Shown piece after piece: positions 16,632 to 63,105 of a DNA stretch of 64,000 nucleotides (position 1 is its first letter; every line of letters starts with the position of its first letter). Below the pieces are notes generated by a model. That model did not search any database, was not told the origin of the DNA, and was given only the letters and a program-made list of their open reading frames with translations. The stretch lies in NCBI RefSeq assembly GCF_900099825.1, contig NZ_LT629693.1:806001-870000 (forward strand), in the 5' to 3' direction. This stretch comes from Bradyrhizobium ottawaense (GTDB lineage Bacteria; Pseudomonadota; Alphaproteobacteria; Rhizobiales; Xanthobacteraceae). The translations under genes and the position numbers were made by a program.

Positions 16632-16663
16632 CGCAGGCATCCCGAGGAAGCTATTGAGAGCAA

Positions 16664-45135: not shown

Positions 45136-45319
45136 GTCAACCTCCCTGTCTTCTTGTTCTATTGTTGTGCCTGAACCCGATCGTCGGTCGATTGTTTCGG
45201 TTCACCGAGACGACGTCAACATTGGCCTTGTCGCGATCGAGCCTGCCTCTATCGTTCGCGCAGCGGTTGACGAAGCCTCTTGGCTGCGCCAATAATCGCG
45301 CGCAGAAGGCGCTTTGAAC

Positions 45320-48056: not shown

Positions 48057-48076
48057 CGTCTTTCTCTTCCGAAGAT

Positions 48077-48094
48077 TTCTAACATCTGTTAGAA
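48077..48094. promoter_or_regulatory. TetR-type operator, site 1
   Basis: TTCTAACA-TC-TGTTAGAA, a perfect palindrome with 8-bp arms and a 2-bp centre. It sits in the 89-bp divergent promoter between the enoyl-CoA hydratase (minus) and PECR-like SDR (plus) genes and is the best copy of the motif in the window. Confidence 0.88.
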
Positions 48095-48145
48095 TACTGC
48101 CGAACCGCGCTCGAATACAACCGGTATTCAACCATCGGGACCACC

Positions 48146-48994
48146 ATGCAGCCACTACCTAACATGCGTTTCGCGCCGGACCTCTTGACCAGCCAGGTCG
48201 CGCTCGTGACCGGGGGCGGAACCGGAATGGGCCGCGCCACAGCGATCGAGATGGCGCGCTGCGGCGCCGACGTCGTAGTGCTGGGCCGCCGCGCCGAACC
48301 GATCGAGGACTGCGCCAAAATTATCCGCGAACTCGGCCGCAAAGCCGTCGCGATCTCCACCGACATTCGCCTGCCCGACCAGATCGACAGCGCCATGCTG
48401 CGCATCAAGGACGAATTCGGCCGGCTGGACATCCTCGTCAACAACGCCGGCGGCCAGTTCGTGACGCCGGCTCGCGAGCTCAACAACAAGGGTTTTGAGA
48501 CCGTGATTCGCAACAATTTGATCGGCTCCTGGCAGATGACCAAGGCCGTGGCCGATCATTTTATGCTGGAACATGGCGGCTCGATCGTGTTTGTGACCGC
48601 CTGCGTCCGTTCCGGCTTAAGCGGCTTTGTGCATACGGCGGCGGCGCGCGGCGGCGTCCTGGCGATGATGAAAACGCTGGCGTTCGAGTGGGCCGAATTC
48701 GGCATCCGCCTCAATTGCGTCGCTCCCGGAACCATCAAAACCGAAGGCATGGATCATTACCCGATCGATCCCGAGCAATGGCTGAAGCTGAACCGCAATG
48801 TGATGGGCCACATGGGCGACGTCGGGGATATTTCGGCAGCCATCATTTTCCTCAGTTCTTCGCTTGGAAAATTCGTCACCGGCGAGGAATGGTACATCGA
48901 CGGCGGCGAAACGCTGCATCTGGCTCACGACGCGCGCCAGATGATCGACGCGGTCAAGTTCTCCAGGCGCGAGCCTGCCGTCCTTAAAAAGTAG
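48146..48994 (+). CDS. SDR-family reductase resembling trans-2-enoyl-CoA reductase (PECR-like)
   Basis: Protein of 282 residues with the NADP motif ALVTGGGTGMGRATAIEMAR and LVNNAGGQF. The usual catalytic Tyr-x3-Lys is not present: the aligned segment reads HTAAARGGVLAMMKTLAFEW, with His and Arg in their places. This resembles, from family knowledge, peroxisomal trans-2-enoyl-CoA reductases and 2,4-dienoyl-CoA reductases, not ordinary alcohol dehydrogenases. It would reduce an enoyl- or dienoyl-CoA intermediate. It is followed 59 bp later by an acyl-CoA dehydrogenase in the same direction. Confidence 0.85.
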   Translation: MQPLPNMRFAPDLLTSQVALVTGGGTGMGRATAIEMARCGADVVVLGRRAEPIEDCAKIIRELGRKAVAISTDIRLPDQIDSAMLRIKDEFGRLDILVNNAGGQFVTPARELNNKGFETVIRNNLIGSWQMTKAVADHFMLEHGGSIVFVTACVRSGLSGFVHTAAARGGVLAMMKTLAFEWAEFGIRLNCVAPGTIKTEGMDHYPIDPEQWLKLNRNVMGHMGDVGDISAAIIFLSSSLGKFVTGEEWYIDGGETLHLAHDARQMIDAVKFSRREPAVLKK

Positions 48995-49053
48995 AGTATC
49001 GGCCAGCGCGGCTCGCCAGACCGGCCGACGCACCCAAGAAACGGAGAACCGTC

Positions 49054-50259
49054 ATGGACTTCGCGCTCAGCGAGCAGCAGCAGGCGTTTCGCGAGACCGC
49101 ACAACGATTTGCCCGGCAGAAGCTCGCCCCTCATTACCAGAAGCGCGCCAAACAGGACCGCATCGACCGCGACATGCTGAAGGAGATGGGCGAGCTCGGC
49201 CTGATCGGCGTCGATCTGCCGGAGAAATATGGCGGCCTTGGCGAGAGCAGCGCCACCGCCGGGATCGTCATCGAGCAAATCGCCTATGGCGATTTCAATG
49301 CCAGTTATGTTCAGTTGCTGGCGTCCTTGATGGGCGGCATGATCGCGCAGCACGCTTCGCCCGAGATCGCCGAGCAATGGCTGCCGCGCGTCACGGGCGG
49401 CAACGCCATCATCGGCCTCGGCCTGACCGAGCCACGCGGCGGTTCGGACGCCGCCAACCTGATCTTGCGGGCCGAAAAGTCCGGCAACGGTTACCGGCTG
49501 AACGGCGAAAAAACCTCGATGAGCTTTTCGGATCAGTGCGACGCCGCCGTTATTTTCGCGCGCACCGGCAACATCGAGGACGGCGCCCACGGCGTCAGCG
49601 CCTTCTTTGTCGATCTCAATCAGCCCGGCATCACCCGCACCCATTTCGACGACATCGGCACCAAGCCGGTCGGCCGCGGTTCGGTCTTCTTCGACGACGT
49701 CTTCATCCCCGCCGAATGCCTGATGGCCGAGGAGAACAAGGGCTTTTCCAAGATCATGTCCGGTTTCGACTATAGCCGCGCCCTGATCGGACTCGAATGC
49801 ATCGGCCCGGCGCAGGCGTCGGTCGACGAAGCCTGGCAGTACAGCACCGAGCGCGTCGCCTTCGAGCGGCCGATCGCGCAGTATCAGGGCGTGAGCTTCC
49901 CGCTCGCGGAAGCCGAAACCCAGCTCACCATGATGCGGCAGCTCTGCTTCTACACGCTATCGCTGCGCGACCAGCGGCTGGCCCACACCGCAGAGGCCGC
50001 GATGTGCAAATGGTACGTGCCGAAGGTGACCTGCGAGATCATCCACCAGTGCCTGCTCACCCACGGCCACTACGGCTACACGACGGATCTGCCGTTCCAT
50101 CAGCGCTACATCGACGTCATGGGTCTTCAGATTGGCGACGGCACCGCGCAGATCCAGAAGCTGGTCATTGCCCGCGAGAAGGTCGGACGGGTCGCGGTGC
50201 AGTATGCCAAGCAGCCCGAGGGGGCCAAGACGACCTCCAACAAGTCGAACTCGAAATAG
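49054..50259 (+). CDS. Acyl-CoA dehydrogenase with Asp in the catalytic position (cyclohexanecarboxyl-CoA dehydrogenase-like)
   Basis: FAD enzyme of 401 residues: start MDFALSEQQQAFRETAQRF, substrate motif LGLTEPRGGSDAANLILRAE, flavin motif KTSMSFSDQCDAA. In the C-terminal signature the base normally read as Glu (…YEGT) is Asp (QIGDGTAQIQKLVIARE). Asp at this place is known from alicyclic-acid enzymes such as cyclohexanecarboxyl-CoA dehydrogenases (AliB-like). The protein has a charged tail of about 20 residues. It shares an operon with the PECR-like SDR. Confidence 0.9.
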   Translation: MDFALSEQQQAFRETAQRFARQKLAPHYQKRAKQDRIDRDMLKEMGELGLIGVDLPEKYGGLGESSATAGIVIEQIAYGDFNASYVQLLASLMGGMIAQHASPEIAEQWLPRVTGGNAIIGLGLTEPRGGSDAANLILRAEKSGNGYRLNGEKTSMSFSDQCDAAVIFARTGNIEDGAHGVSAFFVDLNQPGITRTHFDDIGTKPVGRGSVFFDDVFIPAECLMAEENKGFSKIMSGFDYSRALIGLECIGPAQASVDEAWQYSTERVAFERPIAQYQGVSFPLAEAETQLTMMRQLCFYTLSLRDQRLAHTAEAAMCKWYVPKVTCEIIHQCLLTHGHYGYTTDLPFHQRYIDVMGLQIGDGTAQIQKLVIAREKVGRVAVQYAKQPEGAKTTSNKSNSK

Positions 50260-50267
50260 ACGCTCAG

Positions 50268-50945
50268 TCACCGCCCGCCGTCAAAGGCGTCGTCGTGGAC
50301 CGCCACCCGATCGATACTGGTCTGCCACAGTTTCGGATAGGTGGCGCGAAACTCCTGCAGCAATTGCTCGATCGGAGGATCGGCGAACCAGCCCCGATCA
50401 TTCACGTACTCCATATGCCGATGGCTGTTGGTGTCGAATTCATGAAACAGTGCGTCGCTTTTCCCGTCGAAGATCAGCTGCCGGACGCCAAACCGTTCAC
50501 ACATTTCGGTGTTGAACGCGGGCGTCACCTTGAACTGCCGGCCGTCGAGCCAAAGCGCGACATAGCCATGGTAAATAAAGAGGTCGGTTCCCATCAGCTC
50601 CGCCAGCTTTGGCGAATTCAGGTGGTTGCGGACATCGGCAAATCCGACGGCGGCGGGAATGCCGGCTGCGCGCAGAGCGGCAGTCAGCAGAATCGCCTTC
50701 GGCACGCAATAGTTGGACGCTTTTCCGGCGATCTGGCTGGCGCGGTAATCATTCGCGGCGGTGCCGATGTCGAACGGATTGTACCTGATCCCGTCGCGCA
50801 CGGCATCGAACAGCCGGATCGCCCTGCCGGTCTCCGACAGGCCGCGCGCACCATCCAGACTGTGCGAAACAAATTCGCGAATCTCCGGCGAGTCACAATC
50901 GACAAATTCCGTCGGCGCGAGAAACCCGGCAGCGGTGAAATCCAT
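50268..50945 (-). CDS. Transglutaminase-like cysteine protein
   Basis: Protein of 225 residues of the transglutaminase-like superfamily. The candidate Cys is in ASNYCVPKAILLTAALRAAG, followed by the His region in IYHGYVALWLDGRQFKV; the rest of the triad would be the Asp or Asn shortly after (TPAFN). The family covers peptidases and amidases, and a link to acyl-CoA breakdown is not established. The ATG at 50945 follows GGGAAAGG; the operator at 50976-50993 lies just upstream. It converges with the acyl-CoA dehydrogenase gene. Confidence 0.8.
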   Translation of the reverse strand: MDFTAAGFLAPTEFVDCDSPEIREFVSHSLDGARGLSETGRAIRLFDAVRDGIRYNPFDIGTAANDYRASQIAGKASNYCVPKAILLTAALRAAGIPAAVGFADVRNHLNSPKLAELMGTDLFIYHGYVALWLDGRQFKVTPAFNTEMCERFGVRQLIFDGKSDALFHEFDTNSHRHMEYVNDRGWFADPPIEQLLQEFRATYPKLWQTSIDRVAVHDDAFDGGR

Positions 50946-50975
50946 GTCTTGCGGCCTTTCCCGTTTCGTCAATGT

Positions 50976-50993
50976 TTCTAACAAACGTTAGAA
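50976..50993. promoter_or_regulatory. TetR-type operator, site 2
   Basis: TTCTAACA-AA-CGTTAGAA, matching the palindrome with 7 of 8 symmetric pairs. It lies in the 129-bp divergent promoter between the transglutaminase-like gene (minus) and the 654-residue acyl-CoA ligase (plus). Confidence 0.85.
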
Positions 50994-51074
50994 TCAAAGG
51001 AAAGTGGCCATTGACGCAAAACGTGAGGAAGCGTTAGCTTCCGCGCCTCCGCCGGCAAACGCACAAGATCGTTC

Positions 51075-53039
51075 ATGAACGACACAACACCATATATCTG
51101 GACGCCGCCATCGGAACTGGTGGCGGCGAGCAATCTGACGGCATTTCTGCGCGTCACCGGTCAAAAGGATTACGACGATCTGGCGTCAAAAGCCGAAGCC
51201 GATCCGGCCTGGCTGATGCAGGAAGTGTTCAAGTTCTGCGATATCAGGTTTTACCGCGACTACGACCAGATGCTGGATGTTTCGGGCGGTCAGGCGTGGG
51301 CACGCTGGTGCGTCGGCGGCACCACCAACATCGTGCTGAATTGCCTCGACAAGCATCGCGGCACGGCGGTGTGGGACCAGACCTTCCTGGTCTGGGAAGG
51401 CGAAGACAAGCATGAACGCCGCTCGCTGAGTTACCGCGAATTCGACCGCGACGTCGCGCGACTGGCGCAGGGACTGCACGACATCGGGATCGGGCGGGGC
51501 GACGTGGTCGCGATCTACATGCCGAACCTGCCGGAGACGTTCGTCGCGTTCTTTGCCATCCTGAAGCTCGGCGCGATCGTGATGCCGCTGTTCTCGGGTT
51601 TCGGCCACGCGCCGATTCAGACCCGTCTGAACCATGGTGGGGCAAAGGCCGTTATCACCGCTAACGGTACGTGGCGGCGCGGCGCGCCGGCGCCGCTCAA
51701 ATCGGTGCTCGACATCGCCCTGGAGGCCTCGCCGACCGTGAAACATGTGATCGTCACCCGTCGCGACGGTCTTGCGATCGATACGCCGATGCAGAAGGGC
51801 CGCGACCTCTGGTGGGACGATGCCATCGCCGGCAAGGACGCCACGATCGCAACCGCCGAGATGCAGGCCGAAGATCCGGCGATCCTGCTCTACACATCAG
51901 GCACGACGGGCGAGCCGAAGGGATGCGTCTGGACCCATATCGGCTTCATCGGCTCGATGGTGACCCGCGATATGATCATCTGCGGCGACTTCAAACCGTC
52001 CGATCGCTTCTTCTTTTTCAGCGACATGGGCTGGATGGTCGGCGCGATGTGCGCCTGCATCCCGAGTTTCGCCGGCGGCAGCCTGCTGATCGCGGAAGGG
52101 ACGCCCGATTATCCGGATACGGGGCGGTTCTGGCGCCTGATCGCCGAGCACCGGGTGACCTACCTCGGCGTATCGCCGACCATCGTGCGCAGCCTGATGC
52201 GGTATGGGCTCGAGGTCGAGTTGTACGATCTATCCAGCCTGCGGATGACCGCCTCCGGCGGCGAAGCCTGGACCGCGGCGCCATGGCTGTGGTTCTTCGA
52301 GCACGTCTGCAAGAGGAATATCCCGATCATCAACATTTCGGGCGGCACCGAAGTCGGTGGCTGCATCTTCACGGGCACCCCCAATCACCCGATGAACCCC
52401 GGCTCTTTCTCGCGGCCCGCGCTCGGCGTCGGCGCCGACATCGTCGATATGACAGGGCAACGCGTGCCCGACGGAACGGTCGGCGAGCTGGTGCTGCGGC
52501 ATTCATCCATCGGGCTGACCAAAAGCCTGTGGAAGGCCGATGCGCGCTATATTGAAAGCTACTGGAGCACGCTGCCCGGCCTGTGGGTGCATGGCGATTT
52601 CGCAATGCGCGGCGAGGACGGACTGTATTACATCCTCGGACGCTCCGACGACACCATCAAGATTTCCGGCAAGCGCACCGGCCCGTCAGAACTCGAAGGC
52701 ATTCTGATCGCGACCGGCAAGCTCGCGGAAGCCGCCGTGTTTGGCATTCCGCATCCGGTCAAGGGCTCGGCGATCGTGTGTGCCTGCGTGCCGATGCCGG
52801 GCGTCGAGGGCGATAACGGCCTGGCAAGCCAGCTATCCGCAGCCATCGTCGCGGGAATGGGCACGTCATACCGCCCCGAAACCATCTTGTTCGTCGATGA
52901 TCTGCCACGCACCCGCAACCTGAAAATCATGCGCCGGGTGCTGCGCGCCGTGTTCGAGGACAAGGATCCCGGCGACCTCTCGGCGCTGGCCAATCCCGAA
53001 GCGGTCGACCGGTTGCGCGAGAAACTGGCCGCCATGTGA
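51075..53039 (+). CDS. AMP-dependent acyl-CoA ligase (acetyl/acetoacetyl-CoA synthetase-like length)
   Basis: Adenylating CoA ligase of 654 residues. Conserved motifs are the AMP loop ILLYTSGTTGEPKGCVWTH, FFFSDMGWMVG, NISGGTEVGGCIFTG, WVHGDFAMRGEDGLYYILGR with the hinge region, and TIKISGKRTGPSELEGIL. The lysine near the end lies in PRTRNLKIMRR. The length and the N-terminal 100 residues match acetyl-/acetoacetyl-CoA synthetase-type enzymes rather than fatty-acid ligases. It probably activates the acid substrate or a small fragment of it. It ends in a shared hairpin with the convergent crotonase gene. Confidence 0.92.
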   Translation: MNDTTPYIWTPPSELVAASNLTAFLRVTGQKDYDDLASKAEADPAWLMQEVFKFCDIRFYRDYDQMLDVSGGQAWARWCVGGTTNIVLNCLDKHRGTAVWDQTFLVWEGEDKHERRSLSYREFDRDVARLAQGLHDIGIGRGDVVAIYMPNLPETFVAFFAILKLGAIVMPLFSGFGHAPIQTRLNHGGAKAVITANGTWRRGAPAPLKSVLDIALEASPTVKHVIVTRRDGLAIDTPMQKGRDLWWDDAIAGKDATIATAEMQAEDPAILLYTSGTTGEPKGCVWTHIGFIGSMVTRDMIICGDFKPSDRFFFFSDMGWMVGAMCACIPSFAGGSLLIAEGTPDYPDTGRFWRLIAEHRVTYLGVSPTIVRSLMRYGLEVELYDLSSLRMTASGGEAWTAAPWLWFFEHVCKRNIPIINISGGTEVGGCIFTGTPNHPMNPGSFSRPALGVGADIVDMTGQRVPDGTVGELVLRHSSIGLTKSLWKADARYIESYWSTLPGLWVHGDFAMRGEDGLYYILGRSDDTIKISGKRTGPSELEGILIATGKLAEAAVFGIPHPVKGSAIVCACVPMPGVEGDNGLASQLSAAIVAGMGTSYRPETILFVDDLPRTRNLKIMRRVLRAVFEDKDPGDLSALANPEAVDRLREKLAAM

Positions 53040-53046
53040 ATGGTCG

Positions 53047-53073
53047 GGCAAGGCCGGACGAACCGGCCTTGCC
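53047..53073. terminator. Bidirectional hairpin terminator
   Basis: An 11-bp GC-rich stem (GGCAAGGCCGG and its complement) with loop ACGAA, seven bases after the ligase stop and 25 bases beyond the end of the convergent crotonase-fold gene. There is no long T-run on either side. Confidence 0.75.
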
Positions 53074-53098
53074 AAACCATGTTCCTGCGTGTGCCGCG

Positions 53099-53908
53099 TC
53101 AGATCGGGCAATCCTCCGGAAAAACCGGCTTGCGCTTCTCGAGATGCGACGCCAGTCCTTCCCGCGCCTCGGCGCCGGTGAAGCCGAGGATTTCCAGCGC
53201 TGTCGACGTGTCGAATATCGGTCCGTTGACGCGCAGCCAGTTGTTCAGCGCATATTTGGTCCAGCGGATCGCGCTTTGCGCGCCGGTCGCCAGATCTTCG
53301 GCGGTTTCCAGCGCGACCTTCTGCAGATCGGCGTCCTCGACACACAGCGAGACCAGCCCGATCCGCTCGGCTTCGGTCCCCGACAACGGCTTGCAGGTCA
53401 ACAGATAGTATTTTGCCTTGGCAAGTCCGCACAGCAGCGGCCAGATGATGCAGGCGACATCGCCCGCCGCGACGCCCAGCCGGGTGTGGCCATCGACGAT
53501 GCGCGCGGATTTCCCGCAGATCGAGATGTCGGCGAGGATGCCGACGACGAGGCCGGCACCGACCGCGACGCCGTTAATGGCAGAGATAATCGGCTTGTTG
53601 CAGTTGATGACGTTATAGACGAGGTCCTTGGCCTCCTTCCACGTCGCCATGCGTGCTTTGGGATCGTCGAGAATGCTCTTGATCAGCTCGAAATCGCCAC
53701 CGGCCGAAAACGCCTTGCCCGCACCGGTCACGATCACGGCGTTGATATCGGGATCGTCATTGATATCGCGCCAGATATGGGTGAGCTGGGTGTGGGTCTG
53801 CGCGTCGACCGAGTTGTACGTCTCGGGCCGGTCGAATGTAATCCGGAGGATCCGCTTGGAGGGATAATCGATCTTCAGTTTGGTGTAGGCGGCGTATCGG
53901 TCGGACAT
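53099..53908 (-). CDS. Enoyl-CoA hydratase/isomerase family protein
   Basis: Crotonase-fold protein of 269 residues: ILRITFDRPETYNSVDAQTH, the oxyanion hole in GAGKAFSAGGDFELIKS, INGVAVGAGLVVGILADISI and GHTRLGVAAGDVACIIW. The second catalytic region has VAAGDVA rather than the Glu of crotonase hydratases, so it may be a hydrolase, isomerase or C-C-cleaving member. It is expressed divergently from the AMP ligase/thiolase operon under operator site 3 and converges with the 654-residue ligase. Confidence 0.88.
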   Translation of the reverse strand: MSDRYAAYTKLKIDYPSKRILRITFDRPETYNSVDAQTHTQLTHIWRDINDDPDINAVIVTGAGKAFSAGGDFELIKSILDDPKARMATWKEAKDLVYNVINCNKPIISAINGVAVGAGLVVGILADISICGKSARIVDGHTRLGVAAGDVACIIWPLLCGLAKAKYYLLTCKPLSGTEAERIGLVSLCVEDADLQKVALETAEDLATGAQSAIRWTKYALNNWLRVNGPIFDTSTALEILGFTGAEAREGLASHLEKRKPVFPEDCPI

Positions 53909-53978
53909 GGGCTCCCTTTCTTATTGGCGGGCCACTTTCCGGCCCCCGATCACTTGCATGCAACCGGTTATGGACTGT

Positions 53979-53996
53979 TTCGAACAGATGTTAGAA
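53979..53996. promoter_or_regulatory. TetR-type operator, site 3
   Basis: TTCGAACA-GA-TGTTAGAA, the motif with one changed base in the left arm. It is in the 183-bp divergent promoter between the crotonase-fold gene (minus) and the AMP ligase/thiolase/DUF35 operon (plus). Confidence 0.82.
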
Positions 53997-54091
53997 TTTA
54001 GGTTTGATCGGATACTGCTGCAAGCGTATAGTTTCACACCATATCGACGGGCGCAAAACGACAAGAAAACGCCTTTGGGAGTGGACGAAAG

Positions 54092-55645
54092 ATGACTGGC
54101 GAATTTGACGGCGCCGCCGTAGCCGGCTCCGGTGCCACGGTCGGCGAATTGTTCCACAGTCGCGCGCAAATTCAATCGGCCGACACCGCGATCGAATATC
54201 AGGATCGAACGATCAGCTATGGCCAGTTGTTGCGCCGCGTGGACCGCGCAACAGCCATGCTGGCGGCCAGCGGCCTGGGCCGTGGCGATCGGGTCGCCTT
54301 GCTGTCACGCAACCGGCCTGAATATATCGAAATCGAACTGGCAGCGGCCAATCTGGGCATCATCACGGCCTGCCTGAACTGGCGCCTTTCGCCGCGCGAA
54401 CTGGCCTATTGTGTCGAACTGGTGTCGCCGAAACTTGTGATCGTCGAACCGGACCTGGCCGGCAATCTCGTCAGTCCCGCCGGTGAAGCCTGGCAAACCC
54501 TCGAAATCGGACCGCCCTATGAACGCCTGCTGCAACAGCAGGCCGAACATAGTGCGCCGATCGTCGCGGAGCCCGAAGACGGTCTCGTAATACTCTATAC
54601 CAGCGGCACCACTGGCCTGCCGAAGGGGGCGGTCATTTCCCATCGCGCGATGATCGCACGCGCCCTGGTGTTCAGCTCCGAGTTGGGCATCTCGCCGCGC
54701 GACAGCTTCGTCGCCTGGGCGCCGATGTTTCATATGGCGTCGACCGATCACAGCCTTTCGACCCTGCTTCGCGGCGGCACGGTGGTGATGATCGACGGTT
54801 TTCAGATCGAGCCGCTGCTGGCGGCCGTCGAACGTCACCACATCGGCTGGCTGGTTCTGATCCCCGGCATGGTGGAGGCGTTTGCCGCCGCGTTGAAGAC
54901 GCAGGCAACCAAAGTGAAAGGCGTCCGGGTGTGCGGCGCGATGGCCGACCTGGTGCCGCCGCATGCGATCGCCGAGGTGACCGAACTGCTGCAGGCGCCC
55001 TATCTGAACAGTTTCGGCTCCACCGAAACCGGCCTGCCTCCCGCTACCCGGGCGCTGATCGCGCCGGGCGAAATACCCGAGCGGCTGTCGAAGCAGCAAA
55101 GCGCATTCTGCCAGATCAAACTCGTCGATCCCTCCGATCAGGAAGTAGCGTCCGGCCAGCCCGGGGAACTCGCCATCCGCGGCGCCACCCTGTTTTCCGG
55201 CTACTGGCAAGCCGCCGAGACCAACGCGCATGATTTCCGCGGCGGCTGGTTTCACATGGGCGATGTGTTCCGGCGCAATGCTGATGGCTCACTGGATTTC
55301 GTCGATCGCGTCAAATACCTGATCAAGTCCGGCGGCGAGAACGTTTATCCGGCCGAGATCGAGCGGGTTCTGTTGAGTGACAGCCGCGTCACCGAAGCCG
55401 CTGTCGTCAGGGCCGCCGATCAGAAATGGGGCGAAGTCCCGGTCGCCTTCATCTCCTGCCGCGATGGCAGCGTGACCGAAGCGCAGTTGCTCGAACTTTG
55501 CCGGCGCGATCTGGCGTCGTACAAGCGGCCCCGGCAATTCAACTTCATCGATTTCTCGGAATTTCCCCGCTCAACCAGCGGCAAGGTCCAGCGCCATGAG
55601 CTGGAAGCGAGACTTGCCAAAACCTCTGCCGGAATCACGCCATGA
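54092..55645 (+). CDS. AMP-dependent acyl-CoA ligase
   Basis: CoA ligase of 517 residues, the usual fatty/aromatic acid ligase length. The AMP loop is VILYTSGTTGLPKGAVISH, followed by WAPMFHMASTDH, NSFGSTETGLPP, HMGDVFRRNADGSLDFVDR and the C-terminal hinge with KYLIKSGGENVYPAEIE; the catalytic lysine is in SGKVQRHEL. It probably attaches CoA to a cyclic or branched acid. The stop overlaps the thiolase-like gene by four bases, placing it in the thiolase/DUF35 operon. Confidence 0.92.
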   Translation: MTGEFDGAAVAGSGATVGELFHSRAQIQSADTAIEYQDRTISYGQLLRRVDRATAMLAASGLGRGDRVALLSRNRPEYIEIELAAANLGIITACLNWRLSPRELAYCVELVSPKLVIVEPDLAGNLVSPAGEAWQTLEIGPPYERLLQQQAEHSAPIVAEPEDGLVILYTSGTTGLPKGAVISHRAMIARALVFSSELGISPRDSFVAWAPMFHMASTDHSLSTLLRGGTVVMIDGFQIEPLLAAVERHHIGWLVLIPGMVEAFAAALKTQATKVKGVRVCGAMADLVPPHAIAEVTELLQAPYLNSFGSTETGLPPATRALIAPGEIPERLSKQQSAFCQIKLVDPSDQEVASGQPGELAIRGATLFSGYWQAAETNAHDFRGGWFHMGDVFRRNADGSLDFVDRVKYLIKSGGENVYPAEIERVLLSDSRVTEAAVVRAADQKWGEVPVAFISCRDGSVTEAQLLELCRRDLASYKRPRQFNFIDFSEFPRSTSGKVQRHELEARLAKTSAGITP

Positions 55646-56823
55646 GCGCCAGCACGCTGCGCGGCAAGGTCGCGGTGGTCGGAATCGGAATGTCGCCGGT
55701 CGGCAAGGTACCCGGGAGGAGCCCGCTCTGGCTTGCCGCCGATGCCGCCAAGAAGGCACTGGCCGACGCCGGGCTCGACAAGCGCGATGTCGACGGCGTG
55801 CTGTCATGCCACGCCTTTGCCTCACCATTCCACCGCTTCAGCGTCGCTTTCAGCGAATATTTCGGCATTCAGCCGACCTTTTCGAACACCCTGCAGGTGT
55901 CGGGCGCCACTGCAGCAACGATGTTCAATATCGGCGCCGCGGCCATTCACGGCGGCCTGGCGAAGGTCGTTCTGGTCGTCGCCAGCGACAGCCTGATGAC
56001 CGGCCTGACGCCGGATCTGGCGCTGCGTTCCCTGACCGAAAGCCGCGATCAGCAATATGAAATGCCGTTCGGCATTCCCGTCGCGAACACGTTTGCCATG
56101 ACCGCGCACCGCCACATGAAGGAGTTCGGCACCACGGCCGAACAACTGGCCGAGGTCGCCGTGGTCCACCGGCGTCACGCGGCGCGCACGCCAGGCGCCC
56201 AGCAGAACATGCCGATCACCGTCGACGACGTAGTCAATTCGGGCTGGGTGACGACACCCTACCACAAGCTCGATTGCTCACTGATCTCGGACGGCGGAGC
56301 GGCCTTCATCCTGACATCGGCCGAACATGCCAAGGAGCTCGGCATCGCCAAGCCGGTCTACATTCTGGGCGGCGGCGAGTGCTACACCCACGAACACATC
56401 TTCCTGATGCCGTCGCTGACTACCACCGGCGCGGTCGAGTCCAGCCGCAGGGCCTATGAGATGGCCGGATATGGTCCAAGGGATATGCACACCGCCGGTG
56501 TCTATGACTGCTTTACCGGCACCGTGATCATGATGCTGGAAGACCTCGGATTCTGTCCCAAGGGCGAAGGCGGCCGCTTTGTCGCCGACGGGCAGATGAC
56601 CTATGGCGGCCAGATCCCGTCAAACACCCATGGCGGGCTACTGTCGTTCGCGCATTCCGGAATGCCCGGCTCGCTGTTTCATTTTCACGAGGTGATAGCC
56701 CAATTGCGCGGCCAGTGCGGCGACCGTCAAGTTCCCGGTGCAGAGCTAGGGCTGGTGCACAGCCTGGGCGCCGGCTTTGCGACCAACGCCACGACCATCC
56801 TGGGCACGGAGAACACGCTGTGA
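55642..56823 (+). CDS. Thiolase-fold protein lacking the nucleophilic cysteine (SCP2/Ltp2-like)
   Basis: Protein of 393 residues of the SCP2-type thiolase fold. It begins KVAVVGIGMSPVGK and has the GGLAKVVLVVASDSLM helix. Where active thiolases have Cys in the N-terminal loop (…NNNCATG…), this protein has LQVSGATAATMF with no Cys between residues 57 and 211. It keeps Tyr288 in GVYDCFTG and His338 in LLSFAHSG. Ltp2-type aldolases of steroid side-chain breakdown also lack the Cys and use tyrosines, and also pair with a DUF35 protein, as here. A retro-aldol C-C lyase is therefore more likely than a thiolase. Confidence 0.9.
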   Translation: MSASTLRGKVAVVGIGMSPVGKVPGRSPLWLAADAAKKALADAGLDKRDVDGVLSCHAFASPFHRFSVAFSEYFGIQPTFSNTLQVSGATAATMFNIGAAAIHGGLAKVVLVVASDSLMTGLTPDLALRSLTESRDQQYEMPFGIPVANTFAMTAHRHMKEFGTTAEQLAEVAVVHRRHAARTPGAQQNMPITVDDVVNSGWVTTPYHKLDCSLISDGGAAFILTSAEHAKELGIAKPVYILGGGECYTHEHIFLMPSLTTTGAVESSRRAYEMAGYGPRDMHTAGVYDCFTGTVIMMLEDLGFCPKGEGGRFVADGQMTYGGQIPSNTHGGLLSFAHSGMPGSLFHFHEVIAQLRGQCGDRQVPGAELGLVHSLGAGFATNATTILGTENTL

Positions 56824-57239
56824 TCTCGGCCGAAGACGCGATGAAGAAACCGGTGCCGGCGCCCGACGCCGATTCCGCGGCGCTGTGGCGCGGCCTGCGC
56901 GACGGCGTGCTGCTGCTGCAGCACTGCGGCGATTGCCACCACGTGCAATACTACCAGCAGGGCATGTGCCGGCAATGCAGCAGCGAAAACCTCTCCCATA
57001 AGGTCGCGTCGGGGCGCGGCAGGGTGCATTCGTTCAGCGTGGTCCATCGCGCGCCGGGGCCGGCCTTCAAGGCCGACGTTCCCTATGCTGTCCTGCTGGT
57101 CGACCTGGAAGAAGGGCCGCGGATGATCAGCACCTATGTTGGCGGCAAGCCCGAAGACGTCGCGTTCGACATGGACGTCATGCTGGTCTGCGAGCAGATC
57201 GACGACCGCACAACGCTACCGCGGTTCCGCCGCGCGTAG
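56820..57239 (+). CDS. DUF35/OB-fold zinc-ribbon partner of the thiolase-like protein
   Basis: Protein of 139 residues. The N-terminal half has a rubredoxin-like zinc ribbon (HCGDCHHVQYYQQGMCRQC, two CxxC pairs), and the C-terminal half an OB fold (GRGRVHSFSVVHRAPGPAF, PYAVLLVDLEEGPR). Such proteins bind thiolase-fold partners, and the gene overlaps the thiolase-like gene (GTG start within its stop, GTGA). ATG at 56841 is an alternative start. It probably builds the active site or substrate channel of the partner. It ends the operon that starts at 54092. Confidence 0.88.
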   Translation: MISAEDAMKKPVPAPDADSAALWRGLRDGVLLLQHCGDCHHVQYYQQGMCRQCSSENLSHKVASGRGRVHSFSVVHRAPGPAFKADVPYAVLLVDLEEGPRMISTYVGGKPEDVAFDMDVMLVCEQIDDRTTLPRFRRA

Positions 57240-57297
57240 AAGCACCCCGCCCCTCTCGAATTCCGCCCCGGCAACGCACGCCCATGCCATGTTTATT

Positions 57298-57333
57298 TTC
57301 TAACAAATGTTCGATTTCTAACGATTGTTAGAT
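57298..57333. promoter_or_regulatory. TetR-type operator, sites 4a and 4b in tandem
   Basis: Two abutting copies: TTCTAACA-AA-TGTTCGAT at 57298-57315 and TTCTAACG-AT-TGTTAGAT at 57316-57333. They lie 60-95 bp before the start of the acyl-CoA dehydrogenase/carboxylase operon and share the arm sequences of the other sites, including the TTCGAA variant of site 3. Confidence 0.85.
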
Positions 57334-57392
57334 TGAAATCCTGCTGGCTTCTGCCTAAACAAGGGCGATCCACCACCAACCGGAGCCGATCC

Positions 57393-58556
57393 ATGGACTT
57401 TGATCTTACGCACGAGCAGCGGCAGATCCTTGGCTATGGCGACACCGTCGCCAAGAAATTCGATCGCAAGTACTGGATGGAATGCGCCGACAAACACGTG
57501 TTTCCCGACGCGCTTTATCAGCAGGTCGCAGAGGACGGTTTCGTCGGAACCATGGTGCCCGAGGAATATGGCGGCGCCGGCCAGGGCATGGTCGAGATGC
57601 ATCTTTTCCTGGAGGGACTCTCGAACAACGGCATTCCCCTACTGAACCTCGTCGTCGGTGCGGCAATGAGCCTCGGCTTCATCGCCAAATACGGCTCCGA
57701 AGCGCAGAAGATGCGTTATTTGCCCGATGCCTGCAGCGGCAAGACGCGTTTCTGCTTCGCGATTACCGAGCCGGATGCGGGCAGCAACACGATCCGCACC
57801 ACTACGATGGCGACGAAACGAGGCAACCGCTTCGCGCTGAATGGACAAAAGACGTTCATCACCGACGCCGATGGCGCCGACCACGCACTGGTGGTGGCGC
57901 GCACCACGCCCCACAGCGAAACCGGCAAAAAGACCGACGGCTTCACCCTGTTCATTGTCGATCTCAAAGCCAAGGGGCTGCAGAAATCATACATCCCGGT
58001 CAGCATCCCGGCACCGGAAACGCAATGGCAGTTGTTCTTCGACGATGTCGACCTCGGACCAGAGGACATCGTGGGAGAGATCGACAAGGGGTTCGGCATC
58101 CTGTTCAAGAGCCTCAATCCGGAACGGATCCTGGTGGGCTCGATCTGCTGCGGTCTCGGCCGCTATGCGCTGAACCGCGCCGTCGACTATGTCAAAGAGC
58201 GCAAGGTCTTCAACAACGTGCCGATCGGCGCCTATCAGGGCTTGCAGCATCCGCTGGCAAGCGCGCGGACCGATGTCGAAATGGCCTCCCTGATGACGTT
58301 GAAGGCGGCCTGGATTTTCGACCAGGGCCGCGAGGCCGGCGAATTCGCCAACATGGCCAAGCTCGCGGCCGCCGACGCCGGCATCAAGGCGGTCGATACC
58401 GCCGTGCAGTGCCACGGCGGCAACGGCTTTACCAAAGAGTACGGCATCTTCGACATCTATCCGCTGGTTCGCCTGTTGAAGACCGCCCCGCTCAATCGCG
58501 AAATGATCCTCAACTATATCGGCGAGCATGTCATGGGCTTGCCACGCAGCTATTAG
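57393..58556 (+). CDS. Acyl-CoA dehydrogenase, first gene of the carboxylase operon
   Basis: FAD enzyme of 387 residues. The motifs FAITEPDAGSNTIRTTTMA and KTFITDADGADHALV are normal, and CHGGNGFTKEYGIFDIYPL ends the signature. The usual Glu before GTxEI is absent (APLNREMILNYIG), so the catalytic base is probably the Glu in LNPERILVG. ATG 57393 follows a CCGGAGCC-type site; an ATG 60 bases earlier lies within the operator region and is rejected. The genes for a carboxyltransferase and biotin carboxylase follow directly. Confidence 0.9.
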   Translation: MDFDLTHEQRQILGYGDTVAKKFDRKYWMECADKHVFPDALYQQVAEDGFVGTMVPEEYGGAGQGMVEMHLFLEGLSNNGIPLLNLVVGAAMSLGFIAKYGSEAQKMRYLPDACSGKTRFCFAITEPDAGSNTIRTTTMATKRGNRFALNGQKTFITDADGADHALVVARTTPHSETGKKTDGFTLFIVDLKAKGLQKSYIPVSIPAPETQWQLFFDDVDLGPEDIVGEIDKGFGILFKSLNPERILVGSICCGLGRYALNRAVDYVKERKVFNNVPIGAYQGLQHPLASARTDVEMASLMTLKAAWIFDQGREAGEFANMAKLAAADAGIKAVDTAVQCHGGNGFTKEYGIFDIYPLVRLLKTAPLNREMILNYIGEHVMGLPRSY

Positions 58557-58566
58557 GTGATTTGCG

Positions 58567-60174
58567 ATGGCCACGATGAAGTCCGAGGTTTCGACGGCGA
58601 GCGAGGAGTACCGCCGCAACCGCGAGGCCTATGAGGCGCGGATCGCCGATCTGCATATCCGTCGCGCGGCGGCAGCCATCGGCGGTCCGGAACGAGCGCG
58701 ACGGCTGCACAGGGACCGCAAGCAGCTATTGCCGCGCGAGCGGGTCGCCGCCCTGCTCGACCCCGGCTCGCCCTTCCTGGAATTTTGCCAGCTCGCCGGC
58801 GAAGGCATGTATGAAGGCGTGCCGCCCGGCGGCAGCATCATCACCGGCGTCGGTATGGTGTCGGGCCGCGCCTGCATGATCATCGCCAACGACGCCACGG
58901 TGAAGGGCGGCACCTACTACGGAATCACCTGCAAGAAGCACGTTCGTGCCCAGCGATTTGCGTGGCAGCACCGGCTGCCCTGCGTCACCCTGGTGCAATC
59001 CGGCGGCGCCAATCTACCGGACCAGCCAAATATCTTTCCCGACGAAGGCCAGTTCGGTTCGATCTTCTACAACCAGATTCGGATGTCCAGCGAAGGCATT
59101 CCGCAGATCGCCATCGTTCACGGACCATCGACGGCCGGCGGCGCCTATATGCCGGCGCTGTGCGACGAAACCGTCATCGTGCGCAATCAGGGCGCGATGT
59201 TTCTCGGCGGACCGCAGCTGGTCTACGCCGCCACAAAGGAAGAAGTCGGCATGGAGGCGCTCGGCGGCGGCGAGATGCACAGCCGCGTCAGCGGAGTGAC
59301 CGACCATCTGGCAGAAAGCGACGGCCACGCCATCGCCATCACCCGCGACATCGTCGCCCATCTCGGCGAAATCCCGGCGCAGCGATGGACCGTGACCCCG
59401 CCCCGTCCGCCGCGTGCCGATCCCAACGATATCTACGGGCTGATCAGCGCCGACCCGCGGGTGCCGACCACCAATCGCGACATCGTGGCGCGCCTCGTCG
59501 ATGACAGCGAATTCCACGAATTCAAGCCGCTGTATGGCGACACGCTGATCACCGGCTTCGCGCGCATCATGGGGTTTGAAATCGGGATCCTGTGCAACAA
59601 TGGCGTGCTGTTCTCGGAGAGCGCGCTGAAGGCGACGCACTTCATCGATCTCTGCTGCAAGCGCAACATCCCCCTGCTGTTCATGGCCGACGTCACCGGA
59701 TTCATGGTCGGCCGCGAGGCCGAGGAAGGCGGCATTTCCAAGCATGGCGCCAAGATGATCACGGCGATGGCCAGCGCCAACGTGCCGAAATACACCTTGA
59801 TCATCGGCAACGCCTACGGCGCCGGGTATCTCTCGATGTGCGGCCGCGCCTTCAGGCCGAACGCGATGATGATGTGGCCGAACGGACGTTCCGCGATCAT
59901 GGGACCCGACCAGGCCGCGACCACGCTCGCCATGGTCAAGGACGAAGGGCACAAGCGCGAAGGCACCAGCTGGACCGACGCGGAACGCGAGGCCTATCGC
60001 GCGCCGGTGCGCAAGACCTTTGAGGATTTTGCCAACGCCTACAATTTCGCCCGTAACACCTGGTGCGACATGGTGATCGATCCGCTCGAGACCCGCAACG
60101 TGATGGCGATGCTGCTCGATCTGGCCGGCCGGCTGCCGCAGCAGCACACCGACTTCGGCGTGTTGCGGATGTGA
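58567..60174 (+). CDS. Acyl-CoA carboxylase carboxyltransferase (beta) subunit
   Basis: Protein of 535 residues with two crotonase-like halves. The N-terminal half has TLVQSGGANLPDQPNIFPD and GPSTAGGAYMPALCDE, the biotin/CoA site segment GGPQLVYAATKEEVGMEALG. The C-terminal half has LLFMADVTGFMVGREAEEGG, GNAYGAGYLSMCGRAFRP and WPNGRSAIMGP. This matches methylcrotonyl-/geranyl-CoA-type carboxyltransferases. The gene begins 10 bp after the acyl-CoA dehydrogenase stop and pairs with the biotin protein encoded next. Confidence 0.93.
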   Translation: MATMKSEVSTASEEYRRNREAYEARIADLHIRRAAAAIGGPERARRLHRDRKQLLPRERVAALLDPGSPFLEFCQLAGEGMYEGVPPGGSIITGVGMVSGRACMIIANDATVKGGTYYGITCKKHVRAQRFAWQHRLPCVTLVQSGGANLPDQPNIFPDEGQFGSIFYNQIRMSSEGIPQIAIVHGPSTAGGAYMPALCDETVIVRNQGAMFLGGPQLVYAATKEEVGMEALGGGEMHSRVSGVTDHLAESDGHAIAITRDIVAHLGEIPAQRWTVTPPRPPRADPNDIYGLISADPRVPTTNRDIVARLVDDSEFHEFKPLYGDTLITGFARIMGFEIGILCNNGVLFSESALKATHFIDLCCKRNIPLLFMADVTGFMVGREAEEGGISKHGAKMITAMASANVPKYTLIIGNAYGAGYLSMCGRAFRPNAMMMWPNGRSAIMGPDQAATTLAMVKDEGHKREGTSWTDAEREAYRAPVRKTFEDFANAYNFARNTWCDMVIDPLETRNVMAMLLDLAGRLPQQHTDFGVLRM

Positions 60175-60193
60175 CGACAGAGGATATCGCCCG

Positions 60194-62203
60194 GTGTTCA
60201 AGAAAATCCTGATTGCCAATCGCGGCGAGATCGCCTGCCGCATCGCGCGGACCTGCCGGCGGCTGGGCATCGAGGTCGCAGGCGTCCACTCCTCGGCCGA
60301 CGCCGATGCCCTGCACGTCAAGGTGATCGGCGAGTCTTACCAGATCGGCGGTTCGGCAGCATCCGACAGTTATCTGCGGATCGACGCCGTGATCGGCGCT
60401 GCGAAAACCGCCGGCGCCGAGGCCATTCATCCCGGGTTCGGCTTTCTGGCAGAGAATGCGGCATTCGCGCGGGCCGTCGAGGCCGCGGGCCTCGTCTTCA
60501 TCGGACCCACCGCTGATGTCATCGAACGTCTGGGCGACAAGGCGTCCGCCAAGCGCGAGGCCGAAGCGGCCGGCGTGCCGACCGTACCCGGCAGCCAGAC
60601 GCCGAGCGAAGACGCGGCAGAAGTCGCAGCGATCGTGCGTGAACTCGGCCTGCCCGCGATGTTGAAGGCGGCGGCGGGCGGCGGCGGTAAAGGCATGCGT
60701 GCCGTCGTAGCACTCGATGGCCTGGCCGGTGAAATCGAAGCCGCGATGCGCGAGGCAAAGAACTCATTCGGTTATGCCGGGCTGATCGTCGAAAAGCTGA
60801 TCGAGCATGGACGTCACATCGAGGTACAGATCGCCGGCGATGGCAACGGCAATGTCATTCATCTGTTCGAGCGTGAATGTTCGCTGCAGCGGCGGCACCA
60901 GAAGCTGATCGAGGAAGCCCCGGCCGCGAACCTTGCGGCAAATCTGCGTGCGCGCATGGTGACCGACGCGGTGCGGCTCGGCCAACGCCTGAATTATCGG
61001 GGCGTGGGCACCGTCGAATTCATCGTGAGCGGCGACAGCTATTATTTTCTCGAGGTCAATCCCCGCCTCCAGGTCGAGCATCCCGTCACCGAAATGGTAA
61101 CCGGCGTCGATATTGTCGAGCTGATGCTGCGGATCGCCGCCGGGGACGGCTTGCCCGTGACGCAAGCCGACATCAGGTGCAGCGGCCATGCCGTCGAGGC
61201 GCGGATCTGTGCGGAGGACCCTGCCAACAATTTTCTACCCTGCACGGGAGAGCTCGCTTACGTCAGATTCCCTCACACCGGCGTTCGGGTCGAGACTGGC
61301 GTCGAAAGTGGATCAACCGTTACCCCCTATTACGACTCCATGTTGGCCAAGCTGATCGCACACGCAGAAACGCGCGACGAGGCACTCGACAAACTGAGCC
61401 GCGCGCTCGACCAGACCTCCATCTTCGGCATTACGACCAATCAGGGTTTTCTGACACGCCTGATCGAGCTGCCTGAGACACGCAGCGCCACGTTCCATAC
61501 CAGGTTGATCGACGAGCAGATCGACCGGCTCGTGGACAGGACGAAGGGACCCGACACCGAGGCACTGGCCATCGGAGCCTATTTCTGGATGACCCGGCAG
61601 CGCCCGCCGGCAGCGGACAATCCCTCGCACAATCCCTGGCAGTCGCGCGAGACCACCGGCTGGCAGATGGCGGCCGGTGACGACGGACTGTCGCCGATCC
61701 CGATCCTGCATCTCGAAGCAGCTGGGGCAAGCGCGGAGATCAGGTTTGCGCCACGGCAGGCCGATGGCACCATGCTCGTCGGCATCAACGACAGCAAACT
61801 GCCGGTCAGGCTGGTTCCGGCTGACGGCGACGGCTTTACCGCCGTCGTCGGGAGCCGTCGCGAAACGGTACGTATCCACCAGCACGATCAAACATTGTTC
61901 GTCCACGACCTCCGTGGCGTGCACACGCTGACCGCCATACCCTATCTGACCTACATCAGCGCGGCAGCTGAGACGAGCGGCGAGCTGCGGGCGCCGATGA
62001 CGGGCATGATCCTCAAGGTCAATGTGGCGGTCGGCGACCGGATCAGGGCCGGCGACGTCGCCGCCATTCTCGAATCGATGAAGATGGAACTGCGCATCAA
62101 CAGCGAGACCGACGGCGTGGTTGCCGCCGTAAACTGCCGGGCCGGCGAAACGGTCGAACGCAATGCCGTCGTCGTGGTCGTGGAGCCGGACGGACAAGCT
62201 TAA
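60194..62203 (+). CDS. Acyl-CoA carboxylase biotin carboxylase/BCCP (alpha) subunit
   Basis: Fused biotin carboxylase and biotin carrier of 669 residues. The ATP-grasp part starts ILIANRGEIACRIARTCRR and has the glycine loop AAAGGGGKGMRAVVALD and the carboxylase site LEVNPRLQVEHPVTEMVTG. The C-terminal biotin site is in AAILESMKMELRIN (Lys of MKM). It begins with GTG at 60194, 20 bp after the beta subunit. The enzyme would carboxylate an unsaturated branched acyl-CoA at the expense of ATP. Confidence 0.93.
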   Translation: MFKKILIANRGEIACRIARTCRRLGIEVAGVHSSADADALHVKVIGESYQIGGSAASDSYLRIDAVIGAAKTAGAEAIHPGFGFLAENAAFARAVEAAGLVFIGPTADVIERLGDKASAKREAEAAGVPTVPGSQTPSEDAAEVAAIVRELGLPAMLKAAAGGGGKGMRAVVALDGLAGEIEAAMREAKNSFGYAGLIVEKLIEHGRHIEVQIAGDGNGNVIHLFERECSLQRRHQKLIEEAPAANLAANLRARMVTDAVRLGQRLNYRGVGTVEFIVSGDSYYFLEVNPRLQVEHPVTEMVTGVDIVELMLRIAAGDGLPVTQADIRCSGHAVEARICAEDPANNFLPCTGELAYVRFPHTGVRVETGVESGSTVTPYYDSMLAKLIAHAETRDEALDKLSRALDQTSIFGITTNQGFLTRLIELPETRSATFHTRLIDEQIDRLVDRTKGPDTEALAIGAYFWMTRQRPPAADNPSHNPWQSRETTGWQMAAGDDGLSPIPILHLEAAGASAEIRFAPRQADGTMLVGINDSKLPVRLVPADGDGFTAVVGSRRETVRIHQHDQTLFVHDLRGVHTLTAIPYLTYISAAAETSGELRAPMTGMILKVNVAVGDRIRAGDVAAILESMKMELRINSETDGVVAAVNCRAGETVERNAVVVVVEPDGQA

Positions 62204-62237
62204 TTCACTGACAAGAGCGAATGACGGGAGTGCGGAC

Positions 62238-63005
62238 ATGCGGTTGGGCAGCGTCAACTACGAAACCAGGGGCAAAGTCGCCCTGCTCACGCTCGACGAG
62301 CCCCACAAGCTCAACGCTCTGAGCGCCGGCATTCGCCAAGGTATCCTCGAAGGCCTCGCCAAGGCCGACACGGATGACACCATCCGGGTCGCCGTCATTA
62401 CCGGCAACGGCGACAAGGCGTTTTGCGCCGGTGCCGATATCGGCGAGTTCGATTTCGATCCGGAAAAGGCGCGCAGCTTCCTGATTGCCGCAATCGAGGT
62501 GCTAGCGGCGCCGGAAAACACCCGCAAGCCCGTGATATCCGCCGTCAACGGCATCGCCTATGGCGGCGGGTTCGAGCTCGCCATCGCTTCGGATTTCATC
62601 ATTGCGTCCGACCGCGCGCGGTTCGCGGTGCCGGAAATCAAGCTCGGCCTGCTGCCGGGATTTGCAATCGTACGCCTGCAAGACATCGTCGGCCGCGCCA
62701 AGGCCAAGGAGATGAGCATGCTCGGCGACCCCATCTCCGCGCAGGAAGCCTGCCGGCTGGGCATTGCGCTCCGCGTGGTGCCTCATGCCGATGTGCTCGC
62801 GGACGCCCTCGCCTTCGCCGAACAGATCGCCTCAAAACCGCGGTTGGCGGTGCGGATGGCTAAATCGTTCCACAATCGTGGCCTCGGTGGCGATGATATC
62901 CGTCATGCGATCGACGGATTTCCATTCCTTTTCATGCATGAGGATGCGCGCGAAGGAATCGCCGCGTTCAGGGAGAAACGCCAACCCAAATTCAGCGACA
63001 AATAG
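62238..63005 (+). CDS. Enoyl-CoA hydratase/isomerase (crotonase-fold), end of the carboxylase operon
   Basis: Protein of 255 residues: TRGKVALLTLDEPHKLNALS, oxyanion loop NGDKAFCAGADIGEFDFD and NGIAYGGGFELAIASDFI, then AVPEIKLGLLPGFAIVRLQD, which carries the Glu-containing second active-site segment of true hydratases. After the carboxylase, a hydratase acting on a glutaconyl-CoA-like product would follow the leucine/terpene-type order (as LiuC). ATG 62238 is chosen because the earlier in-frame ATG lies inside the carboxylase gene. Confidence 0.9.
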   Translation: MRLGSVNYETRGKVALLTLDEPHKLNALSAGIRQGILEGLAKADTDDTIRVAVITGNGDKAFCAGADIGEFDFDPEKARSFLIAAIEVLAAPENTRKPVISAVNGIAYGGGFELAIASDFIIASDRARFAVPEIKLGLLPGFAIVRLQDIVGRAKAKEMSMLGDPISAQEACRLGIALRVVPHADVLADALAFAEQIASKPRLAVRMAKSFHNRGLGGDDIRHAIDGFPFLFMHEDAREGIAAFREKRQPKFSDK

Positions 63006-63087
63006 CAGGTATCCGGCCGCTGGGGTCCAATCGGCGCGGCGTCGGTCAAATCGACAAGAGGCCGCACGGTATCGAGCTTGCAAGGAA

Positions 63088-63105
63088 ATCCAACGTTCGT
63101 TAGCC
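63088..63105. promoter_or_regulatory. TetR-type operator, degenerate site 5
   Basis: ATCCAACG-TT-CGTTAGCC, which keeps the CAAC…GTTAG core of the other sites but not the outer arms. It is 76 bp before the ABC ATPase start. It may be a weak or decayed operator that links transport to the same regulon. Confidence 0.5.

Follow-up and report, generated by a model that had tools for sequence, protein, structure and literature searches.

An 18-bp palindrome as the predicted operator of a TetR-family regulator in an acyl-CoA gene cluster of Bradyrhizobium ottawaense

Results

A shared palindrome at the acyl-CoA promoters

We analysed a 64,000-nucleotide stretch of Bradyrhizobium ottawaense DNA (the window; contig NZ_LT629693.1, C1:806001-870000 of the 8.34-Mb genome, G000), in which an 18-bp palindrome, TTCTAACA-N2-TGTTAGAA (also written TTCTAACN4GTTAGAA), recurs at promoters of a cluster of acyl-CoA genes. 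The palindrome is very probably the operator of the TetR-family regulator encoded at 45314-46051, a predicted repressor of these genes that would be released by an acyl-CoA of the pathway. A first-pass annotation, made from the letters of the window, had placed copies at 48077, 50976 and 53979 and a tandem pair at 57298-57333. These coordinates proved exact, with no mismatch at 48077, one each at 50976 and 53979, and two each at 57298 and 57316. The four operator places, with their distances to start codons, are as follows.

48077..48094, Operator 1: perfect copy between the enoyl-CoA hydratase/isomerase gene ECH_47271 (-) and the short-chain dehydrogenase gene SDR_48146 (+), 20 and 51 bp from the starts
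50976..50993, Operator 2: between the transglutaminase-like gene TG (-) and the acetyl-CoA-synthetase-like gene ACS (+), 30 and 81 bp
53979..53996, Operator 3: between the enoyl-CoA hydratase/isomerase gene ECH_53099 (-) and the AMP-forming ligase gene AMP at 54092 (+), 70 and 95 bp
57298..57333, Operator 4: abutting pair, 57298-57315 and 57316-57333, 5' of the operon of acyl-CoA dehydrogenase (ACAD_57393), carboxyltransferase (CT), biotin carboxylase (BC) and enoyl-CoA hydratase, 77 and 59 bp

Three of the four places thus lie between divergent genes, and the distances of 20-95 bp agree with the 21-96 bp given earlier. The five sites scored 28-35 bits with a position weight matrix (PWM). At up to three mismatches the window holds these five sites, compared to a mean of 0.04 and a maximum of 2 in 100 dinucleotide shuffles. 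Genome-wide, the five were the only sites at up to two mismatches, and the reversed pattern, used as a control, gave none. At up to three mismatches, nine sites were found (the same five and four with exactly 3 mismatches) against 25 for the reversed pattern, and the 3-mismatch sites are therefore noise. The first-pass annotation had seen no copies outside the region, which the genome search bears out, and its concern that the motif might occur at equal density before unrelated promoters was not realised in that search.

Conservation of the sites in related clusters

We fetched 80 loci with the window TetR, comprising 23 orthologous clusters (L039-L061, from Bradyrhizobium, Rhodopseudomonas and metagenome-assembled genomes) and 57 remote loci (L062-L118). 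At up to two mismatches, 22 of the 23 orthologous clusters carry sites, 69 in total; in the exception, L041, the contig ends inside the cluster and there is a 3-mismatch site only. Promoter alignments, which were not selected for the motif and whose numbers include the window, showed arms far more conserved than the remaining positions at operator 1 (0.99 vs 0.68, n=20), operator 2 (0.98 vs 0.57, n=23) and operator 3 (0.97 vs 0.62, n=20). The most conserved 18-mer in all three was the palindrome or lay 1-2 bp off its register, and its two central bases, unlike the arms, were variable. In 96% of the 69 sites the palindrome is followed by a T (base 19), and the right arm with this base often reads TAGAAT, which could be a -10 box within the operator.

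We then counted relatives with a site of score >=10 within 200 bp 5' of each gene, omitting for each gene those in which it is missing, is less than 55% identical, matches only from residue 41 on or lies near a contig end. A site precedes ECH_47271 (19/19), SDR_48146 (7/7), TG (7/7), ACS (22/22), ECH_53099 (19/19), AMP (19/19), ACAD_57393 (2/2) and CT (14/15), as well as the acyl-CoA dehydrogenase genes ACAD_49054 (3/6) and ACAD_46071 (2/3). CT scores here because many relatives have no dehydrogenase in front of it. The operon-internal genes for the thiolase (THI, 0/15), the OB-fold protein (OB, 0/15) and BC (0/14) had no site within that distance, nor had the TetR gene (0/22) or the divergent gene SDR_44368 (0/5). 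In the window, the TetR/SDR_44368 promoter likewise holds no palindrome (best PWM score -10.3 bits). The first-pass annotation had assigned the motif to every promoter of the locus; this stands for the operon heads and fails for the TetR/SDR_44368 promoter. Its proposal of a coordinated regulon is strengthened by the arm footprints in the alignments and by the placement of the sites at operon heads and not before THI, OB or BC.

The tandem pair 5' of ACAD_57393 recurs with a spacing of 17-19 bp in eight loci chosen for showing a pair, and a single site takes its place in L056, L183 and L188, among other relatives. The extra sites of relatives, as far as examined, mostly precede acyl-CoA genes; in other relatives, further ones stand before pairs of acyl-CoA dehydrogenase genes and before an operon of thiolase/MaoC type. 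As a side observation, some relatives carry an extra palindrome 5' of ACAD_49054 (L149:10483-12552, L040:14572, L043:14633); that of L149 adjoins a gene resembling FMN-type 2,4-dienoyl-CoA reductase, which was not found in the window's cluster.

Co-occurrence of the sites with the TetR regulator

Among 146 sampled genomes of the genus, all 20 with an orthologue of the TetR regulator (E<=1e-75) carry 3-8 sites; of the 126 without it, 113 have no site, 12 have one and one has four. Of 248 genomes of the family, 231 gave no match to the TetR at E<=1e-40. The further genomes with such a match, 15 in number, all carry 3-8 sites, and among 43 controls, taken by handle order from the 231, 38 have no site, four have one, one has two and none has three or more. 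Fisher statistics on these counts overstate independence, since the sampled genomes are related and the TetR gene is linked to the sites. The choice of the TetR gene at 45320 as the probable reader, made in the first pass, agrees with this co-occurrence, with the lack of a good site near two paralogues and with same-class palindromes beside some remote homologues (see below).

45314..46051, +, TetR-family regulator: 245 aa from TTG 45314, ATG 45320 also possible; Pfam TetR_N, TetR_C_24 and TetR_C_4

The regulator matches TetR_N (7.8e-18) and TetR_C_24 (8.6e-13), and its AlphaFold2 model (mean predicted local distance difference test score 82; 17 of 20 ten-residue blocks from residue 51 on at least 88) is all-helical with TetR fold matches. 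PfmR, DarR, KstR2, AibR with isovaleryl-CoA and DNA, FadR and BkaR are among the nearest solved structures. Several of these neighbours respond to acyl-CoAs but DarR responds to c-di-AMP, and the ligand therefore does not follow from the fold by itself; since most of the Foldseek list reflects the TetR fold in general, it is weak support for the ligand class. Taken with the target genes, the fold neighbours FadR, KstR2 and AibR point to an acyl-CoA as the putative ligand.

Double TetR proteins and remote homologues

Two of the 20 genus genomes with an orthologue (G014 and G130) also hold a double TetR, counted at E<=1e-30 with 18 candidates per genome. In the double TetR, two TetR units share a single open reading frame (ORF) or open frame some 435-477 aa long; it was seen at L147:9626-11038 (G130:C27), L140/L141/L143/L144, L062:9311-10618 and in G347 (L173/L175). 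The two units of G130 share 50% and 51% identity with the window TetR, and more acyl-CoA genes and sites are present at that locus. Immediately 5' of the double TetR, L147 and L062 have a palindrome of the same class. Tandem TetR proteins such as Mce3R resemble it.

At the 57 remote TetR loci, the strict pattern TTCNAACN4GTTNGAA occurred four times in the 44.7 kb lying within 400 bp outside the gene, compared to three times in 899 kb farther away, and two strict control patterns were not found at these loci. A looser form gave 6 near and 14 farther sites, and three of the four near strict sites belong to related Chloroflexi. An Acidimicrobiia homologue (L067) has the recognition-helix letters KAGSLYYYFDSKE, compared to KAGSIYYYFDSKE in the window TetR, and a palindrome with 2 mismatches. 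The letters YYYFDSKE, shared by the two proteins, are partly selected for, since they were among those used to find the loci. PsrA-type TTCAAAC-N4-GTTTGAA sites, that is, the window skeleton with A for T at position 4, were seen at loci of remote TetR relatives, 31-57 bp before the TetR match in Chloroflexi (L078, L079, L085) and about 3.3 kb off in Halomonas (L074:13323, L090:13285).

A weak copy before the transporter gene

63088..63105: weak or degenerate operator, 75 bp 5' of the ABC-ATPase gene at 63181; PWM 2.2 bits

The weak copy of the first-pass annotation fared less clearly. Counted from the letters, it differs from the motif by 6 mismatches, and 11 of 20 random 64-kb sequences hold something scoring above its 2.2 bits. 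For its single promoter it nevertheless beats chance, because 2 of 878 random 240-bp windows reached this score and the aligned position scores better in three of six relatives (8.6, 10.8 and 13.4 bits; -7.8 to -13.4 in the other three). Given these better-scoring sites, we abandoned pure noise as an explanation and read the site as a putative operator, weak or decaying, for the transporter/ligase block.

Genes of the locus

Strand and gaps suggest a division of the region from 46.07 to 63.0 kb into seven transcription units, 14 genes in all, and every unit begins at a site. The genes of the locus are listed below.

44368, -, short-chain dehydrogenase, BadH-like (SDR_44368); divergent to the TetR gene
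46071..47243, -, acyl-CoA dehydrogenase (ACAD_46071); Pfam; 27 bp behind ECH_47271
47271..48056, -, enoyl-CoA hydratase/isomerase (ECH_47271); Pfam ECH_1 on ORF 47271-48155
48146..48994, +, short-chain dehydrogenase (SDR_48146); Pfam
49054..50259, +, acyl-CoA dehydrogenase, AliB type nearest (ACAD_49054); TIGR03207 544.9 bits, cut-off 575.35
50268..50945, -, transglutaminase-like protein (TG); Pfam Transglut_core on ORF 50268-50984
51075..53039, +, acetyl-CoA-synthetase-like acyl-CoA synthetase (ACS); Pfam, PDB relatives
53099..53908, -, enoyl-CoA hydratase/isomerase (ECH_53099); NF005595 420.9 bits, cut-off 292
54092..55645, +, AMP-forming acyl-CoA ligase (AMP); Pfam
55642..56823, +, SCP2/lipid-transfer-type thiolase (THI); Pfam Thiolase_C_1, PDB thiolase 4u4e
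56820..57239, +, ChsH2-type Zn-ribbon/OB-fold partner (OB); Pfam on the longer ORF 56715-57239
57393..58556, +, acyl-CoA dehydrogenase (ACAD_57393); NCBIfam acyl-CoA dehydrogenase models, all below cut-offs
58567..60174, +, carboxyltransferase, methylcrotonyl-CoA carboxylase beta type (CT); PDB matches
60194..62203, +, biotin carboxylase and biotin domain, alpha subunit (BC); Pfam
62163..63005, +, enoyl-CoA hydratase; Pfam ECH_1; ORF extent, putative start
63181..63978, +, branched-chain-type ABC transporter ATPase; Pfam ABC_tran and BCA_ABC_TP_C

The gene at 63181 opens a transporter/AMP-ligase block that extends beyond the window and has another ligase among its downstream genes. On the other side, ORF 43355-43906 matches only positions 65-193 of the 384 of the AMP-binding model and looks like a ligase fragment; a ligase beside the cluster of L042 was compared with it and did not match.

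Candidate pathways and substrate

The beta subunit of methylcrotonyl-CoA carboxylase (MCC) is marked by a Phe in its pocket, in place of which geranyl-CoA carboxylase has Gly (PMC4673880). The carboxyltransferase of the window, one of several in the genome, has such a residue, Phe163, aligned to human MCC-beta Phe191, and we therefore rejected geranyl-CoA carboxylase and with it the acyclic terpene pathway. Another MCC-like carboxyltransferase, 53% identical, lies in the region G000:C1:8060390-8062666 with a TetR match close by (8062499); this locus is possibly a leucine pathway with its own regulator. Given this second carboxyltransferase, plain leucine catabolism is less likely for the cluster studied here.

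The cyclohexanecarboxylate pathway (AliB/BadH) of Rhodopseudomonas palustris offers a partial likeness. ACAD_49054 and SDR_44368 are the genome's best AliB- and BadH-like genes, both score below the curated cut-offs, and SDR_44368 has no palindrome. The carboxylase operon is not known to belong to that pathway. In L042, which shares its record with L149, the match to the AliB-like dehydrogenase is split between different frames (15875-16309 and 16312-17064), which suggests a disrupted reading frame in that strain. Our best guess for the substrate of the window's cluster is a cyclic or beta-methyl-branched (isoprenoid-like) acid.

Discussion

Proposed mechanism

Overall, we propose that a TetR dimer would bind each 18-bp site, two dimers occupying the pair at 57298-57333, and would block transcription from the acyl-CoA gene promoters. 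Filling of the C-terminal pocket by an intermediate of the pathway, most probably an acyl-CoA thioester, would cause the repressor to let go, so that the seven units would switch on together, with a possible weaker effect on the block at 63181. The gene products would carry out the activation and beta-oxidation of a carboxylic acid, a beta-methyl branch being handled by the MCC-type enzyme. Repression with acyl-CoA release is the likeliest mode judging from the fold neighbours and from the operator skeleton, which resembles those of PsrA and PaaR.

Weighing the alternatives

An alternative explanation is that another TetR reads the palindromes, for instance one of the two closest paralogues in the genome (G000:881904, 40% identical, or 891841, 32%), and that the regulator at 45314 controls something else. 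At E<=0.001 the genome yields 29 TetR matches, the window TetR among them, and the regulator's own promoter lacks the palindrome. However, no good site was found near the two paralogues (best 2.2 bits in L145, from the site at 63088 itself, the next being 0.0; -0.8 in L146). A second TetR also occurs in few of the 20 site-bearing genomes with an orthologue: besides the two with a double TetR, a second single-domain match was found in two (G000, 40%; G131, 43%; same threshold and number of candidates), and G053 and G064, whose TetRs are 38% identical only, have no sites. We consider this explanation unlikely.

It is similarly improbable that the regulator acts as an activator or dual regulator, recruiting polymerase when ligand-bound. 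Divergent promoters with one shared site are compatible with either mode of action. Positions 20-95 bp from start codons are, however, more typical of a repressor. BkaR and PaaR are repressors, and PsrA, on the other side, regulates rpoS positively (PMC13104628). That the palindromes are island-borne repeats or RNA hairpins would fit inverted repeats near gene starts, but appears highly improbable: conservation is far higher in the arms than in the flanks, with variable bases at the two central positions, divergent genes enclose three of the four places, and THI, OB and BC have no site in 14-15 relatives. The likelihoods given to these alternatives are not strictly exclusive of the TetR operator itself.

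Several observations weigh against the assignment of the palindrome to the window TetR as its repressor. One genus genome (G097, 75% complete) is that with four sites and no detected TetR, and because the TetR gene and the sites are linked, their co-occurrence could partly mirror transfer or loss of a whole island. The palindrome adjoins the double TetR in some relatives, so the orthologue need not be the sole reader; in G347 the matches are a double TetR (49% and 44%) and a 42% copy only. A site in G319 (L184:5628) lies outside the cluster and has no Pfam-recognised neighbour gene. The TetR gene has no site, whereas BkaR and PsrA control their own genes. Finally, sigma-70-like sites were no commoner than expected by chance in a promoter scan (4 vs 4.5), which makes repression by overlap with a -10 box no more than plausible.

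Comparison with known regulators

The partial literature covered held no described Bradyrhizobium TetR regulon of this kind that could be recognised by title or start of abstract, which is not proof of novelty, and those listed among the papers with the motif letters looked unrelated by the same measure. Tentatively, the cluster may form a hitherto undescribed regulon of a TetR protein in Bradyrhizobium relatives, dedicated to a carboxylic acid of cyclic or beta-branched (isoprenoid-type) structure; its regulator would have left its own regulon, having no autoregulatory site, and its operator would be read by the double TetR at further acyl-CoA loci in some relatives, giving two sensors for one operator code.

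Among known systems, EdcR (PMC8700777), PfmR/TTHB023 (PMC7022988) and Thermus FadR (PMC5597230) have other operators, and regulons of PsrA, FadP and LiuQ have been described (PMC5343134). The window TetR is 21% identical to AibR, whose PDB entries contain isovaleryl-CoA and operator DNA, and scores 60.0 bits against a cut-off of 200 for Bacillus-type FadR (NF053878), outside that family. BkaR of Mycobacterium, an autoregulatory TetR repressor, recognises the 16-bp core GTTA(N)T(N4)A(N)TAAC (PMC3920632), in which the half-sites are reversed relative to the window core TAAC-N4-GTTA; no bkd-type gene is among the Pfam matches of the cluster, and the window regulator does not belong with BkaR.

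The operators of PsrA and PaaR are closer. The PsrA footprint at Pseudomonas putida rpoS, TTCAAACN4GTTTGAA, has the length and skeleton of TTCTAACN4GTTAGAA and differs by one symmetric base pair; compared to the PsrA operator form (C/G)AAAC-N2-4-GTTT(G/C), spacing and outer arms are the same and TAAC/GTTA stands instead (PMC13104628). The window TetR nevertheless falls outside the PsrA family (40.3 bits, cut-off 300, NF053516, the one PsrA model matched), and PsrA targets differ from the acyl-CoA gene set of the window, whose regulator gene has no site. PaaR (TTHA0973), a TetR protein of Thermus thermophilus, represses phenylacetate pathway operons from CNAACGNNCGTTNG (PMC6651687), which fits the window core CTAACANNTGTTAG with the skeleton CNAAC-N4-GTTNG; of the 69 sites, 93% have A at position 8 and 87% have T at position 11, in contrast to G and C in the PaaR operator. 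The targets of PaaR are likewise acyl-CoA catabolic operons, of a different pathway, and its gene heads one of its own regulated operons.

The regulon described here is well supported but conventional, new in its members and not in its mechanism, and belongs to the known acyl-CoA TetR regulons. The operator code of this patchy catabolic island (20 of the 146 genus genomes) could offer a route to the pathway members and the inducer. With it, the AAC-N4-GTT class of PsrA and PaaR also gains an alphaproteobacterial operator, which could help to relate recognition-helix residues to operator bases.

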